DNA from: Serratia rubidaea
Lineage (GTDB): Bacteria; Pseudomonadota; Gammaproteobacteria; Enterobacterales; Enterobacteriaceae
Length of the DNA stretch: 64,000 nt
Direction of reading: 5' to 3'
Assembly (NCBI GenBank): GCA_901472405.1
Contig: LR590463.1
Span: 1,240,001-1,304,000, forward strand
Shown: piece by piece, positions 44,888 to 49,127 of the stretch
How positions within the stretch are numbered: position 1 is the stretch's first letter
Layout of the letters: each line of letters begins with the position of its first letter
Notes under the pieces: model-generated
Seen by the model: only the letters and a program-made list of their open reading frames with translations
Told to the model about the DNA's origin: nothing
Database searches by the model: none
Position numbers and translations under genes: made by a program

Positions 44888-45403
44888 ATGCAACTGAACA
44901 AAGTGCTGAAAGGGCTTCTGCTGGCACTGCCAGTTCTGGCTGTAGCAGCTTGTAGTTCTAACAAAAGCGCCGATAACGACCAGTCTGGTATGGGCGCAAA
45001 CGGCACTACCGGTATGGAAAGCGGCAGCAGCAACCTGTCTTCCGAAGAGCAAGCGCGTCTGCAGATGCAAGAACTGCAGAAGAACAACATCGTTTACTTC
45101 GGTCTGGACAAGTATGACATCTCTTCTGAGTTCGCTCAGATGCTGGATGCGCACGCGACTTTCCTGCGTAACAACCCATCTTACAAAGTGACCGTAGAAG
45201 GTCATGCGGATGAGCGCGGTACGCCGGAATACAACATCGCCCTGGGCGAGCGTCGTGCTAACGCCGTGAAAATGTACCTGCAGGGTAAAGGCGTTTCCGA
45301 TGACCAGATCTCTATCGTTTCTTACGGTAAAGAGAAACCAGCTGTACTGGGCCATGACGAAGCGGCTTACGCTAAAAACCGTCGTGCCGTTCTGGTTTAC
45401 TAA
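44888..45403 (+). CDS. pal: Peptidoglycan-associated lipoprotein Pal
   Basis: A 171-residue outer membrane lipoprotein. The start at 44888 (MQLNKVLKG) gives a proper lipoprotein signal with lipobox LAVAAC. The OmpA-like domain carries the peptidoglycan-binding [21 protein letters not shown] and the C-terminal [10 protein letters not shown]. It anchors the outer membrane to the cell wall within Tol-Pal. cpoB starts nine bases after the stop. Confidence 0.97.
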
Positions 45404-45412
45404 GAGAATCGC

Positions 45413-46183
45413 ATGAACAGTAACTTCAGACGTCATCTGTTGGGTCTGTCGTTACTGGTTGGCGTAGCGGCCCCTTGGGCCGCTACTGCCCAAGCGCCAA
45501 TCAGTAATGTCGGCTCCGGCTCGGTCGAAGACCGTGTCACCACGCTTGAGCGTATTGCCAATGCTCAGAGCCAACTCTTGAACCAACTCCAGCAGCAAGC
45601 CTCCGACAACCAGCGTGATATCGACTCGCTCCGTGGTCAAATCCAGGAAAGTCAGTATCAGCTCAATCAGGTCGTAGAGCGCCAAAAGCAAATCTATGAA
45701 CAGATAGACAGCCTCGGACAGGGCGGCGGCCAGAGCGCCTCTGCGCCGGCAGCGACTGCTGCGGCGGGGGCTGGCAGCGCTGCGGCTTCTTCTGCAGCGC
45801 CTGCCAGTAAGGGCGATGAAAACAGCGATTACAACACCGCTGTTTCGCTGGCGCTGGAGAAAAAGCAGTACGATCAGGCGATCCCAGCCTTTCAGAGCTT
45901 CGTAAAACAGTATCCCAAGTCTACCTACCAGCCTAATGCCAACTACTGGCTGGGGCAGTTGTTCTACAACCAGGGTAAGAAAGACGATGCGGCTTACTAT
46001 TTTGCGGTGGTGGTGAAAAATTACCCGAAATCGCCAAAGGCGCCTGACGCTATGTACAAGGTCGGTATCATCATGCAGGAAAAAGGGCAGGCTGATAAAG
46101 CCAAAGCCGTGTTCCAGCAGGTGGTTAAACAGTACCCGAACAGCAGCGCAGCCAAACAGGCGCAAAAGCGTATTGCCGGCTAA
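45413..46183 (+). CDS. cpoB: Cell division coordinator CpoB
   Basis: A 256-residue periplasmic protein with signal peptide ending ATAQA. An N-terminal coiled coil (about 40-105: LERIANAQSQLLNQLQQQ) makes trimers, an Ala/Ser-rich linker follows, and three TPR units cover 135-256 (YNTAVSLALEKKQYDQAI, YWLGQLFYNQGKKDDA, YKVGIIMQEKGQADKA). It coordinates PBP1B with Tol-Pal during division. It is the last gene of the cluster. Confidence 0.95.
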   Translation: MNSNFRRHLLGLSLLVGVAAPWAATAQAPISNVGSGSVEDRVTTLERIANAQSQLLNQLQQQASDNQRDIDSLRGQIQESQYQLNQVVERQKQIYEQIDSLGQGGGQSASAPAATAAAGAGSAAASSAAPASKGDENSDYNTAVSLALEKKQYDQAIPAFQSFVKQYPKSTYQPNANYWLGQLFYNQGKKDDAAYYFAVVVKNYPKSPKAPDAMYKVGIIMQEKGQADKAKAVFQQVVKQYPNSSAAKQAQKRIAG

Positions 46184-46195
46184 TTTGGCAGAAAA

Positions 46196-46236
46196 CAAGC
46201 CCAGAAGTTGGTCGATACGACCGATTTTTGGGCTTG
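46196..46236. other. Stem-loop after cpoB
   Basis: Arms CAAGCCCA and TGGGCTTG enclose an inner TGGTCG/CGACC hairpin. It begins 13 bases after the cpoB stop. It has no T run on the plus strand, so it could be a weak terminator or an RNA stability element at the 3' end of the tol-pal mRNA. Confidence 0.5.
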
Positions 46237-46282
46237 ATCGCATGAAGAACCAGCAGTTGAACCTGATGCGTAAAAATTTAGG

Positions 46283-46310
46283 TTGCGCTGCTGAGATAAA
46301 ACAGTAATAT
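46283..46310 (+). promoter_or_regulatory. Promoter of the tRNA array
   Basis: -35 TTGCGC (46283-46288) and -10 TAATAT (46305-46310) are separated by 16 bases. A GC-rich segment ATGCCGCCG follows the -10, as in stringently controlled stable RNA promoters. It lies 51 bases upstream of the first tRNA. Confidence 0.6.
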
Positions 46311-46361
46311 ATGCCGCCGTTGCCCAGACATCTCGCAAGATGTTAAAGCAGCAGGGAAATT

Positions 46362-46437
46362 GGGTCGTTAGCTCAGTTGGTAGAGCAGTTGACTTTTAAT
46401 CAATTGGTCGCAGGTTCGAATCCTGCACGACCCACCA
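46362..46437 (+). tRNA. tRNA-Lys (anticodon TTT), copy 1
   Basis: A 76-base gene with acceptor arms GGGTCG/CGACCC, D-loop AGCTCAGTTGGTAGAGC, anticodon loop CTTTTAA with TTT, T-arm GCAGGTTCGAATCCTGC and encoded CCA. It is the first gene of the Lys/Val array, corresponding in position to E. coli lysT. Confidence 0.97.
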
Positions 46438-46470
46438 ATTTCCAAGAAGTAGTGCAGTAACCACATTAGT

Positions 46471-46546
46471 GGGTGATTAGCTCAGTTGGTAGAGCATCTC
46501 CTTTACACGGAGGGGGTCGGCGGTTCGAGCCCGTCATCACCCACCA
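46471..46546 (+). tRNA. tRNA-Val (anticodon TAC)
   Basis: A 76-base gene with acceptor GGGTGAT/ATCACCC, anticodon loop TTTACAC with TAC, T-arm with GGTTCGAGCCC and encoded CCA. In E. coli valT holds the same position between lysT and lysW. Confidence 0.97.
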
Positions 46547-46550
46547 CTGC

Positions 46551-46626
46551 GGGTCGTTAGCTCAGTTGGTAGAGCAGTTGACTTTTAATCAATTGGTCGC
46601 AGGTTCGAATCCTGCACGACCCACCA
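46551..46626 (+). tRNA. tRNA-Lys (anticodon TTT), copy 2
   Basis: Identical in sequence to copy 1, 76 bases including CCA. It starts only four bases after the tRNA-Val CCA. Its 3' end is followed by the first stem-loop module of the repeat region. Confidence 0.97.
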
Positions 46627-46718
46627 ATTCCTAAAGAATTGGCAGTAAGTGGAATCGGACAGGATGAGAACCGTAAGGTTCGAGTCTCACGACAGTGAGA
46701 CAACATCACACAGTGATG

Positions 46719-46745
46719 GCCCGAAGGGCGAGGCGTAAGCCGAGT
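46719..46745 (+). repeat. Stem-loop module 1 (GCCCGNAGGGC core)
   Basis: GCCCGAAGGGC at 46719-46729 followed by GAG, the hairpin GGCGTAAGCC and GAGT. Upstream are further small hairpins: GAACCGTAAGGTTC, GTCTCACGACAGTGAGAC and ATCACACAGTGAT from about 46668. The same core with different flanking hairpins recurs four times downstream. Confidence 0.75.
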
Positions 46746-46764
46746 AATCCTGCACGACCCACCA
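46746..46764 (+). repeat. Truncated tRNA-Lys 3' end, copy A
   Basis: AATCCTGCACGACCCACCA is an exact copy of the last 19 bases of the neighbouring tRNA-Lys genes (T-loop end, T-arm, acceptor arm, CCA). It is preceded by stem-loop-rich DNA instead of a tRNA body. The 69-base sequence after it is nearly the same as that following tRNA-Lys copy 3. Confidence 0.9.
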
Positions 46765-46833
46765 TTCTTAACGAATGGGCAAGCAGTAAACCGGCGCCAC
46801 GCTTCATGCCGTTCAGCAGTACACCACGTCAGT

Positions 46834-46909
46834 GGGTCGTTAGCTCAGTTGGTAGAGCAGTTGACTTTTAATCAATTGGTCGCAGGTTCGAATCCTGCAC
46901 GACCCACCA
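46834..46909 (+). tRNA. tRNA-Lys (anticodon TTT), copy 3
   Basis: Identical to copy 1, 76 bases with encoded CCA. It follows the truncated copy A by 69 bases. Confidence 0.97.
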
Positions 46910-46978
46910 TTCTTAAAGAATGGGCAAGCAGTAAACCGGCATCACATCTCAGGCCGTTCAGCAGTACACCACATCAGT

Positions 46979-47054
46979 GGGTCGTTAGCTCAGTTGGTAG
47001 AGCAGTTGACTTTTAATCAATTGGTCGCAGGTTCGAATCCTGCACGACCCACCA
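46979..47054 (+). tRNA. tRNA-Lys (anticodon TTT), copy 4
   Basis: Identical to copy 1, 76 bases with encoded CCA. The 69-base spacer before it is nearly identical to the one between truncated copy A and copy 3, showing tandem duplication of a tRNA plus spacer unit. Confidence 0.97.
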
Positions 47055-47178
47055 TTTCTAGAAAGTATTCCTAATCTTAAATATCTCGGCAATGTCATTG
47101 CATAACGCACGAGTCGTGTAGGTGAGAAGCTGCGTTCAGGTTCGAGCCGAGCGAAGCGAGACGACAACGCGTAGCGTT

Positions 47179-47207
47179 GCCCGTAGGGCGAGGCCGGAGG
47201 CCGAGTC
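47179..47207 (+). repeat. Stem-loop module 2 (GCCCGNAGGGC core)
   Basis: GCCCGTAGGGC at 47179-47189, then GAGGCCGGAGGCCGAGTC. It is preceded by ACGCGTAGCGT and by GAGCCGAGCGAAGCGAGACGAC-like DNA (start around 47138). The layout is the same as in module 5. Confidence 0.75.
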
Positions 47208-47226
47208 AATCCTGCACGACCCACCA
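47208..47226 (+). repeat. Truncated tRNA-Lys 3' end, copy B
   Basis: A second exact copy of AATCCTGCACGACCCACCA, preceded by CCGAGTC, the end of stem-loop module 2. A degenerate third start, AATCCTGCGCA, follows module 5 near 47516. Confidence 0.9.
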
Positions 47227-47957
47227 TCTCATAGAAATACTCCCATAGTGATTTAATACTTTAATTTTTCAGATCGCACGTGTCGTGCGGGTGAGACAAA
47301 AGCGTTTACGCTTTTGAACAGCGCTTGCGCTGGCCCGAAGGGCGAGTCTCGGAGAGACGAGTTACCTGCGTTCAGGTTCGACAAAATCGCCGGGAGCGAT
47401 TTTGAACAGCGTTTGCGCTGGCCCGCAGGGCGAGTCTCATGGATGAGACGAGTAATAAGCGAAGCGAGACGACAACGCGCAGCGTTGCCCGCAGGGCGAG
47501 GTCGGAGGCCGAGTCAATCCTGCGCAAGCTAGCGACGCTCCTTTAACCTTCCCCAACCATCAACGTTAACCCGCCGGTGGATATCCCATGACTGCGTTTT
47601 CGGCTATGCGCTCCTGTTTTTATTATCCGTCACATCATTCACGTAATTTCTTCTCTGGCAATAAAAATAAAATAATTAACGGATAAAATTCAATTTCGTT
47701 GACGATTTATTTAATTTGCTCGGCTGGATAAATAATTTTCCATTAGTGATTATTTTAAAGCGCATAAGATAATTAAAATCACACTTACTTATTAACAAAC
47801 AGAAACAAAGCAAATGACGGTAAGCGCTCCATTCATTACTACGCTTTAATGGTCGCCGAAAATTCTATTGCGTGACACGCCTTATTTTACTTCTGACCTT
47901 ATTGCCGCAGCGCCTGAGATTCTGCGGGCGCTCGTCATTGCTTTGGAGAAAGATAAT
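47227..47957. other. Non-coding stretch between the tRNA array and the bicupin gene
   Basis: Apart from stem-loop modules 3 to 5 I see no gene here. 47540-47957 is markedly AT-rich compared with the rest of the window and may contain the promoter of the downstream gene. Open frames through the modules are products of the repeats and do not look like real proteins. Confidence 0.6.
47297..47520 (+). repeat. Stem-loop modules 3 to 5
   Basis: Three adjoining modules. Module 3 has AAAAGCGTTTACGCTTTT, CAGCGCTTGCGCTG, GCCCGAAGGGC (47333-47343), GTCTCGGAGAGAC. Module 4 has AAAATCGCCGGGAGCGATTTT as paired 7-base arms, CAGCGTTTGCGCTG, GCCCGCAGGGC (47421-47431), GTCTCATGGATGAGAC. Module 5 has ACGCGCAGCGT, GCCCGCAGGGC (47487-47497) and GGTCGGAGGCCGAGTC. 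The order of hairpins is conserved while the outer stems differ with compensating changes. Confidence 0.75.
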
Positions 47958-49127
47958 ATGTTATCGCGTCGTGATATGTTGAAAGCCTCCGCCATCAGCG
48001 CGGCAGCGGCCGGTATGGTGGGGGGCATGGTGAAGTCCGCCGTTGCCGATGATCACCGCAATATTGTGCCGCCCAGCAGCTACCAGCCGCCCGCCGATGC
48101 GCGGGGCGTGTATAAATACAAATTTACCGACAGTAAAAAGCGCAGCCTGCCCAGCGGCTGGGCGCGGGAAGCCACCGTCGAACAGTTCCCGATCTCCGAA
48201 GGCGTAGCCGGGGTTGATATGACGCTGGAGCCTGGCGGCGTCCGTGAGCTGCACTGGCACGCCATCGCCGCCGAGTGGGCCTTTATGTTGGAAGGTCGGG
48301 CGCGTATTACCATTATCGATCCGGAAGGGAAATGCGAGGTGGCGGACTTTGGCCCCGGTGACGTGTGGTATTTCCCGAAAGGCTATGGCCATTCCATTCA
48401 GGCGCTGGCGGAGGGCGCGCATTTTATTCTGGCTTTTGATAATGGCCACTTCTCTGAATTCGGAACATTCAGTATTACCGACTGGGTGGCGCATATGCCG
48501 AAAGAAATATTGGAAAAAAGCGTTAATATGCCGGCCTCAATATTCTCCAAAGCCAAGCAGGGGGAAGCCTATATTGTCGGGGGAGCGGTGCCACCGGCGT
48601 TACCGTTAGCCAAAAACGACGGCGGCCTGAATAATTCCCCGTTGACGCACCGCTATCAATTAATGAAACAGAAACCGTTCTTTGAAAATGATGCCGGCAG
48701 CGTGCATCTGGTGTCATCAAAAGAATTCCCTATCTCCACCACCATGACCGGTATTATCGAGATCGTTAAGCCCGGCGCGGTTCGTGAACTGCACTGGCAC
48801 CCGAACGCGAATGAATGGCAATACTATATCTCCGGCAAGGGGCGCATGACGGTATTCAGTTCGCACGGTCATGTCCAGACCGAGGAGTATGCGCCTTCCG
48901 ACGTCGGCTATGTGCCGCAGGGTTTCGGCCATTACATTGAGAATCTCGGCGACGACGATCTGAAGGTGCTGATCGTGTTGGATAACGGCATCTATCAGGA
49001 TATCTCCCTGTCTGACTGGCTGGCGAAAACGCCGGCTTACCTGCTGGCGGACAACTTTAATAATCAGGTTGAGGACTGGCAGGCGCGGCCGAAGGACAAG
49101 CTGGTGATGTCGCGTCGCAGAAAATAA
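47958..49127 (+). CDS. Tat-exported bicupin, oxalate decarboxylase family
   Basis: A 389-residue protein. It begins with a twin-arginine signal MLSRRDMLKASAISAAAAG ending SAVADD. Two cupin domains follow, each with the Mn-binding motif: RELHWHAIAAEWAFM near residue 100 and RELHWHPNANEWQYY near 275, with later histidines in KGYGHSIQ and QGFGHYIE. The overall pattern is that of Bacillus OxdC, which splits oxalate to formate and CO2. The first-domain lid reads FSEFGTF where OxdC has SENST, keeping the key Glu. Decarboxylase rather than oxidase activity is therefore plausible but unproven. The ATG at 47958 has GGAGAAAG upstream. The gene is absent at this site in E. coli. Confidence 0.85.
   Translation: MLSRRDMLKASAISAAAAGMVGGMVKSAVADDHRNIVPPSSYQPPADARGVYKYKFTDSKKRSLPSGWAREATVEQFPISEGVAGVDMTLEPGGVRELHWHAIAAEWAFMLEGRARITIIDPEGKCEVADFGPGDVWYFPKGYGHSIQALAEGAHFILAFDNGHFSEFGTFSITDWVAHMPKEILEKSVNMPASIFSKAKQGEAYIVGGAVPPALPLAKNDGGLNNSPLTHRYQLMKQKPFFENDAGSVHLVSSKEFPISTTMTGIIEIVKPGAVRELHWHPNANEWQYYISGKGRMTVFSSHGHVQTEEYAPSDVGYVPQGFGHYIENLGDDDLKVLIVLDNGIYQDISLSDWLAKTPAYLLADNFNNQVEDWQARPKDKLVMSRRRK

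Follow-up and report, generated by a model that had tools for sequence, protein, structure and literature searches.

The lysine tRNA array of the window

The window, the whole 64-kb stretch of Serratia rubidaea DNA that was analysed, contains a tRNA array with the gene order cpoB - tRNA-Lys - Val - Lys - Lys - Lys - cupin gene - nadA. ARAGORN recovered five intact tRNAs in the array, in the order Lys, Val, Lys, Lys, Lys (Table 1). A Pfam scan of the six frames around the array identified proteins of the OmpA type (Pal by position), the CpoB type, a cupin, NadA and an NMN transporter; no integrase was found in these frames and a 72-codon frame was without a match. No intrinsic-terminator-like site was found at 46180-47960.

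Some further features of the surroundings were recorded. The two-domain cupin gene (47868-49127) separates the tRNA array from nadA; in E. coli, nadA comes directly after lysQ. At 45304-45442 lies the CpoB/ybgF thermometer RNA (RF02782, 156.6 bits). On the minus strand, antisense to 46979-47052 and to two further tRNA-Lys genes, there were Rfam matches to Plastid-ycf2 below threshold (28.5 bits, gathering 65.7), which are probably tRNA-derived noise.

Table 1. Features of the lysine tRNA array, with positions in the window
Feature	Position	Strand	Basis
tRNA-Lys (TTT), intact	46362..46437	+	ARAGORN
tRNA-Val (TAC), intact	46471..46546	+	ARAGORN
tRNA-Lys (TTT), gene preceding RtT unit 1	46551..46626	+	ARAGORN
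RtT (tRNA-linked repeat) unit 1	46644..46764	+	RF00391 73.4 bits; R1 92.6 bits (46643-46764)
Unit 1 closing-helix 5' strand, pairing with the tail	46656..46664	+	R1 alignment; two non-standard pairs
Unit 1 tail, exact copy of the last 19 nt of tRNA-Lys	46746..46764	+	19/19 identity
tRNA-Lys (TTT), intact, inside 145-bp tandem duplication	46834..46909	+	ARAGORN
tRNA-Lys (TTT), gene preceding RtT unit 2	46979..47054	+	ARAGORN
RtT (tRNA-linked repeat) unit 2	47102..47226	+	RF00391 89.2 bits; R1 95.0 bits
Unit 2 closing-helix 5' strand GTCGTGTAGG, predicted partner CCTGCACGAC in the tail	47113..47122	+	fold and R1 alignment
Unit 2 tail, exact copy of the last 19 nt of tRNA-Lys	47208..47226	+	19/19 identity
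Fused, decayed RtT stretch	47259..47534	+	R1 matches; RF00391 matches below gathering score

The 19-mer AATCCTGCACGACCCACCA occurs six times in the window, always on the plus strand, at a chance expectation of about 5e-7 copies per 64 kb for a given 19-mer and even composition. Four copies form the ends of intact tRNA-Lys genes (at 46419, 46608, 46891 and 47036) and two lie outside tRNA genes (at 46746 and 47208). The search thus recovered the two exact 19-base tRNA-Lys ends that an earlier note on this DNA had reported, and ARAGORN agrees with that note in placing them among intact tRNA genes. The DNA ahead of the tails, which the note called non-tRNA and rich in stem-loops, can be given a name: both blocks match the RtT family of Rfam (RF00391) above the gathering score of 45 bits, so that the parallel drawn with the rtT repeats of E. 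coli tyrT was correct. The blocks are RtT, or tRNA-linked repeat, units in a lysine tRNA array, and they are complete units with a tRNA-copy 3' end rather than truncated tRNA genes. Both were also recovered with R1, a covariance model that we built from multiple hosts. The distance to the preceding same-strand tRNA-Lys is 17 nt for unit 1 and 47 nt for unit 2. The consensus closing helix of RF00391 is present in both, in unit 2 with one non-standard pair and one deleted position. Compared with shuffled sequences, the predicted RNA fold reached a z of -5.70 for unit 1 (46627-46764) and of -1.65, little better than shuffled, for unit 2 (47090-47226).

Behind unit 2 lies a stretch in which RtT sequence is fused and decayed. 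R1 matched it at 47259-47381 (40.7 bits) and 47409-47534 (56.1 bits), and RF00391 at 47271-47380 (26.3 bits) and 47410-47534 (28.4 bits), both under the gathering score. A Lys-type 5' strand, GTCGTGCGGG, can be recognised by eye at 47282-47291, together with body modules, and the tail is shortened to the eight bases AATCCTGC (47516-47523), all that remains of the decayed third start noticed earlier near 47516. The stretch therefore falls short of the 18-19 bp tail identity that units 1 and 2 show. The array also contains a 145-bp tandem duplication (46746-46890 / 46891-47035, 94%), of which the first copy starts inside the tail of unit 1 and the second at a tRNA-Lys end, which suggests that exchange takes place between tails and tRNA ends.

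The lysT array of E. coli K-12, which likewise comes after cpoB, yielded five R1 matches, and the last 18 bases of tRNA-Lys occur in it nine times, five in tRNAs and four in tails. The tRNA-linked repeats (TLRs) are a named family: extracts of PMC8144298 count 22 at ten loci in K-12, each of which is stated to match the RNA ahead of it over the final 18-19 bp, date the family in E. coli back to 1978 and cite Rudd 1999 for the K-12 repeats. Because the K-12 lysT array has such units and TLRs are a named family, the units of the window are ordinary members, and the idea of an undescribed kind of locus, raised by the earlier note, which knew of no description of such repeats at a lysine array in Serratia, was not upheld. 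In Actinobacillus, RtT members have been reported near Lys and Asn tRNA genes, where they are called upstream of the tRNA (PMC4986893, in part).

The tail copies the end of the local upstream tRNA

The genome from which the window was taken holds 11 RF00391 units, which have a tRNA-Tyr, Lys, Pro, Arg or Ser gene in front of them; the Lys units number three and are spread over two loci. Every one of the 11 follows a same-strand tRNA, and eight have a tail that is identical over 18-19 nt to the end of their own upstream tRNA; the remaining three (one Arg and two Ser units) have a tail copy with changed final bases. The comparison was extended to 17 genomes, comprising this one and 16 picked non-randomly, for their many or weak matches, from 83 others with RF00391 matches. 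Around three quarters of the matches checked (150 of 203; one of the 204, G074:C19, was left out) showed no mismatch over 18 nt to an upstream tRNA end, when a shift of the tail end of up to 6 nt was permitted. The other 53 were divided over 25 with 1-2 mismatches, 5 with 3-5, 15 with more than 5, and 8 without a tRNA in the fetched stretch.

The tail also follows the individual tRNA gene variant. From the 175 matches with at most two mismatches, 156 unique elements remained after removal of duplicates and one tRNA-spanning match. Within the isotype, the tail was closest to the tRNA variant of its own locus in 153 of these; three were ties and none was closer to another variant. Tails with at least three mismatches (20 of the 195 matches having an upstream tRNA) were only marginally commoner in the last unit of an array than in others (13/83 versus 7/112, p 0.054), and the idea that decay is limited to the last unit was dropped on this ground.

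One could envisage a neutral tandem DNA repeat, which spreads and persists via unequal crossing-over between the 19-bp tails and the tRNA ends and whose RNA has no role. The 145-bp duplication, which starts in an RtT tail and resumes from a tRNA end, fits with it, as do the evenly spaced tandem units of equal score that are common among the genomes compared. Extracts from the literature list rtT with a 175-bp repeat that varies from one Salmonella serovar to another (PMC2658671) and describe a viable E. coli laboratory mutant that lost a tRNA-Tyr gene together with RtT (PMC12584984). Nevertheless, we consider this explanation rather unlikely, since recombination alone does not predict covariation: the 5' strand is no direct copy of contiguous tRNA sequence and yet its changes tend to go along with those of the tail, and the covariation extends to the inner hairpins.

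Changes in the 5' strand of the closing helix

The covariation was analysed in two hand-chosen alignments, A1 (36 elements, five tRNA types, with both hosts and genomes chosen by hand) and A2 (43 elements, among which Gln, Glu and tmRNA hosts are represented too). For the whole structure of 33 pairs in A1, 85.5% of the cells were paired, versus 72.9 +/- 0.7 in shuffled alignments, and 152 cells were double-changed versus 51.2 +/- 6.0, a number reached by none of 500 shuffles. As judged from this alignment, the inner hairpins thus covary too. For the closing helix alone, 83.8% of the cells were paired (71.3 +/- 1.4 shuffled), 50 cells were double-changed (19.4 +/- 4.1 shuffled) and the covariation score was 0.394 (0.204 shuffled), each reached by 0/500 shuffles. 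In A2, where some rows (two tmRNA and some Lys) are out of register, which lowers the counts, the closing helix was paired in 81.4% of the cells (66.7 +/- 1.5 shuffled) with 73 double-changed cells (27.2 +/- 5.1 shuffled), again reached by 0/500. Slid versions of the structure, which start with a handicap since the structure itself derives from the same sequences, gave 36-45% paired cells for the whole of A1, 47-57% and 3-29 double-changed cells for its closing helix, and at most 63.3% and 40 for that of A2.

Two measures, the number of pairs changed on both sides and the number of further pair types, are rated by the covariation tool as least misled by relatedness, which the shuffles ignore. 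In the closing helix of A1 neither exceeded the shuffles (6 pairs, reached by 217/500, and 15 types, reached by 340/500), and the same held for the whole structure (19 pairs, 40/500, and 46 types, 302/500). In A2 the pair types of the closing helix were above the shuffles (6/500), the pairs changed on both sides were not (440/500).

Exchange of tails between elements provided another view. When tails were permuted over the five variable pairs, the observed pairing of 0.721 compared with 0.499 +/- 0.026 and was reached in 0/20000 permutations. With the 36 elements kept in register, the own tail scored 0.853 over the five variable pairs versus 0.575 for tails of other isotypes; it was better than the mean of the others in 33/36 elements and better than the best other isotype in 24/36, with 6 ties. 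Two weaker tests were less discriminating: the own tail paired better than the best other-isotype tail in 48/156 elements (73 with ties), and by duplex energy it surpassed the mean of each other isotype in 90/156. This is partly because G-rich strands pair with many C-rich tails and because many Arg 5' strands lay outside the stretch used.

Individual hosts illustrate the pattern. A Glu host combines CCCCAAGGGGAT with ATCCCCTTGGGG, and a Gln host GGCGCCAGGAT with ATCCTGGCGCC. Genome G115 has two tRNA-Lys variants, and there the 5' strands GCCGT or CCGT occur with ACGGC tails and GTCGT with ACGAC; one of its four Lys unit types (5' strand GAGTG) is mismatched to its own tail variant. The closing helix is moreover present in the structure line that Rfam itself provides for RF00391, independent of A1 and A2. 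Taken over the alignments, the 5' strand of the element is predicted to pair with the copied tail and tends to change along with it. That RtT has a structure backed by covariation was already known, including a covarying tandem GA motif (PMC7657543, in part); what is new is only the evidence that the helix persists from host to host. We found no account in the open-access literature searched of a 5' strand that follows the host tRNA. Mimicry of an RNase P minihelix is not claimed, because the outermost counted pair (A1 column 14) is present in only 17 of 34 rows; the closing helix corresponds to the T stem and only part of the acceptor.

Range across genomes and hosts

At an E value of 0.001, RF00391 matched 84 of 149 genomes of the family (82 above the cut-off) and 62 of 295 genomes of the order (43 above the cut-off). 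Among 26 hand-chosen matches at 20 loci outside the family, 16 were exact 18-base copies behind Tyr, Glu, Ser or Pro tRNAs, 3 had 1-2 mismatches and 6 had at least 4; the remaining match, without an upstream tRNA, follows a tmRNA gene and shows 3/18 mismatches to its end. At the level of the class and the same E value, R1 matched 94 of 274 genomes and RF00391 51, 19 of them above its cut-off. All 29 new loci were checked, and 23 had exact copies of an upstream Gln, Ser, Tyr or Glu tRNA or tmRNA; the rest comprised one locus with 1 mismatch, one with 2, one with 10 (a partial match) and three without an RNA gene in the stretch. Within the phylum, 57 of 299 genomes had matches, 31 of which were outside the class (30 of one family and one of another). 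The check covered 13 of the 17 new loci, four of the own family being omitted: nine of the ten loci of the out-of-class family were exact and one had 7 mismatches, and three further in-class loci included two exact ones (Lys and Arg) and one with 2 mismatches.

In two rRNA operons of the own genome there is an R1 match behind the 5S gene, which was recognised by eye from its likeness to annotated E. coli rrfB. E. coli rrnB has the same arrangement with a 5S copy, which has been published as the small RNA RrB (PMC8144298, in part). On the basis of the model matches and the tail copies, the element recurs throughout the class behind Tyr, Lys, Pro, Arg, Ser, Gln and Glu tRNAs, 5S rRNA and tmRNA, a range that is wider than we found described in the literature.

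Several single loci were noted. At L230 (366-894) an RtT unit lies directly behind a tmRNA gene, with 3/18 mismatches between its tail and the tmRNA end, and at L252 (1501-1639, minus strand) the tail of such a unit is an exact 18-nt copy of the tmRNA end; we found no account of RtT behind tmRNA in the open-access literature searched. In the rRNA operons, RtT-like units lie between two terminator-like hairpins (L201, 1501-1625, G000:C1:340767-340891 plus strand; L202, 3806361-3806485 minus strand), and their tails fall within a 28-base direct repeat of the local 5S end, in the GGACACTGCC variant that matches that 5S. At L200, the second lysine locus of the genome, an RtT unit and a terminator-like hairpin alternate twice, by eye like the T1/T2 of rRNA operons. 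Elsewhere in this genome, an RtT-like module antisense to tRNA-Phe is enclosed by two copies of a terminator-like hairpin at L206 (G000:C1:357343-357461), and L205 (G000:C1:1526782-1526854) has an isolated RtT-like module (29.5 bits), for which the 3 kb fetched contained no tRNA. L207, L209 and L210 are dispersed repeats with a central RtT/rrnB-like module, GGACAAATTTGCCGGGAGCAAATTTGAAC...GGCCCGTAGGGTGGG, in slight variations; their ends are roughly inverted (TGACAA...TTGTCA) and near terminator-like hairpins, and they gave weak R1 matches of 14-19 bits.

The alternation of RtT-like units with terminator-like hairpins, seen by eye at the second lysine locus and in the two rRNA operons, could be taken to mean that RtT controls the tRNA operon at the level of the transcript, through attenuation or by providing a zone of Rho-dependent termination. 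Candidate enterobacterial attenuators that form one cluster have in fact been tied to rtT-like, BIME-type sequence (PMC2965389, in part). In the window, however, the region 46180-47960 was without an intrinsic-terminator-like site and unit 1 has a mid-array position, followed by two more tRNA genes, and such control therefore appears very unlikely.

The least probable explanation, to which we give hardly any weight, is that the copies are scars of integrative elements at tRNA 3' ends, i.e. direct repeats of the att type. An intact tRNA followed by a 19-bp copy of a tRNA end does resemble an attL/attR pair. Against this, the six neighbouring frames had no integrase in Pfam, R1 matches the same array in E. 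coli, and copies are also found behind 5S and tmRNA. Together with the absence of an integrase, the compensatory changes and the occurrence of RF00391 in more than half of the family genomes led us to reject integration as the main reading. The same compensatory changes and occurrence disfavour the scars of recombination or integration that the earlier note had considered. The note would also have regarded the blocks as chance debris if all relatives lacked them, and the distribution within the family is at odds with that.

A proposed processed co-product of the tRNA operon

The likeliest of the readings put forward by the earlier note is that of a processed small RNA. More specifically, we are slightly inclined to see RtT as a structured RNA that is co-transcribed with its host gene, and the copied tail as a duplicated 3'-maturation signal by which the processing enzymes of the host would release it. 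At the locus in the window, the RtT units would be transcribed together with the lysine tRNAs. The 19 bases of the tail reproduce the neighbouring tRNA from the 3' half of its T-arm through the acceptor strand to the CCA, and the 5' strand would pair with this copy, such that a multi-hairpin body is held on a helix resembling the acceptor/T stem of a tRNA. The enzymes that act on tRNA 3' ends may then also cut and trim behind each tail, which would yield a discrete RNA ending in CCA. Through sequence exchange with tRNA ends the tails might stay identical to the local tRNA, and the 5' strand would follow the tail under selection for the RNA fold.

The annotated and mapped ends of related RNAs favour such a duplicated 3'-maturation signal, by which the unit would be set free from the transcript. 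The annotation of E. coli rttR has its 3' end at the CCA of the tail and its start at the 8th nt behind tyrV. In extracts of PMC8144298, the 3' end of RrB maps 3 nt behind its 5S copy, the ends of RrB are described as RNase E-type sites, and recognition of the repeat by RNase E is proposed for RrB. Counting against the proposal are the modest phenotypes that the same extracts give for deletion and overexpression of RrB, the viability of the E. coli mutant without RtT, the covariation measures that did not rise above shuffles, the two weak pairing tests, the misfit Lys unit type of G115, the tails with three or more mismatches and the low fold score of unit 2.

It is also conceivable that a regulatory small RNA or sponge is what is selected, one that binds a protein or RNA in the way RrB binds CsrA and Hfq, and that the tail is incidental. 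RrA, RrB and RrF, the TLRs of the E. coli rRNA operons, bind CsrA and Hfq (PMC8144298, in part), RtT-family RNAs were detected in Actinobacillus (PMC4986893, in part) and RtT was found to be up in the cold in Thioalkalivibrio (PMC8092127, in part). In extracts of PMC8144298, however, the 19 tRNA-linked TLRs scored < 0.01 in the CsrA prediction. The same source states that an early starvation role of rtT was retracted and attributed to a nearby reading frame; a role of rtT in the stringent response was dropped here in view of that retraction. Regulation would, moreover, not by itself explain that the tail follows the host gene, and as an alternative it appears unlikely, more so than the neutral repeat. 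The regulatory and the processed co-product readings are nonetheless compatible.

In a broader sense, we consider it an even question whether RtT is a portable RNA cassette that occurs across the class (presumably the Gammaproteobacteria) and in at least one family outside it, and that re-tailors its tail and 5' strand to the upstream stable RNA, such that the 3'-maturation machinery of the host would excise it. If so, RtT/TLR would be a general co-product of stable-RNA operons, far wider than the current Rfam cut-off shows. The contribution of the window itself is small, as it adds two more members to a known family. The comparative result is weightier, since a structured RNA with the 3' end of its local host and a pairing strand that follows this end offers a clear test of whether stable-RNA operons yield a second, processed class of small RNAs. 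It is relevant, too, to the dual terminators of rRNA operons, which have a related element between them and whose purpose is called unclear in extracts of PMC8144298, and to the rrnB terminator cassettes of plasmids, which are said there to carry the related element. The parts that are worth following are the host-to-host covariation and the class-wide range.

Comparison with known systems

With the att sites of integrative elements, the units of the window share the direct repeat of a tRNA 3' end. They differ in that the window repeat is without an integrase in six frames and represents a structured RNA with compensatory changes. RrA, RrB and RrF are closer, being counted as TLRs in extracts of PMC8144298, and K-12 rrnB has body-like sequence and a copied 5S end; unlike the window units, however, these elements copy a 5S end, sit between two terminators and bind CsrA, and rrnB scored only 23.4 bits with R1. 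The TLRs of K-12 resemble the units of the window in their 18-19 bp 3' identity with the upstream tRNA or rRNA, and the lysT array behind cpoB is comparable, although it concerns another genome in which the number and positions of the units differ, and the window has a fused, decayed terminal stretch. The RtT of RF00391 (rtT/RttR of the E. coli tyrT operon), finally, agrees with the window units in covariance model, length (similar), hairpin order, closing helix and tail copy, whereas the host in the window is tRNA-Lys instead of tRNA-Tyr, and both the tail and the strand that pairs with it are of the Lys type.
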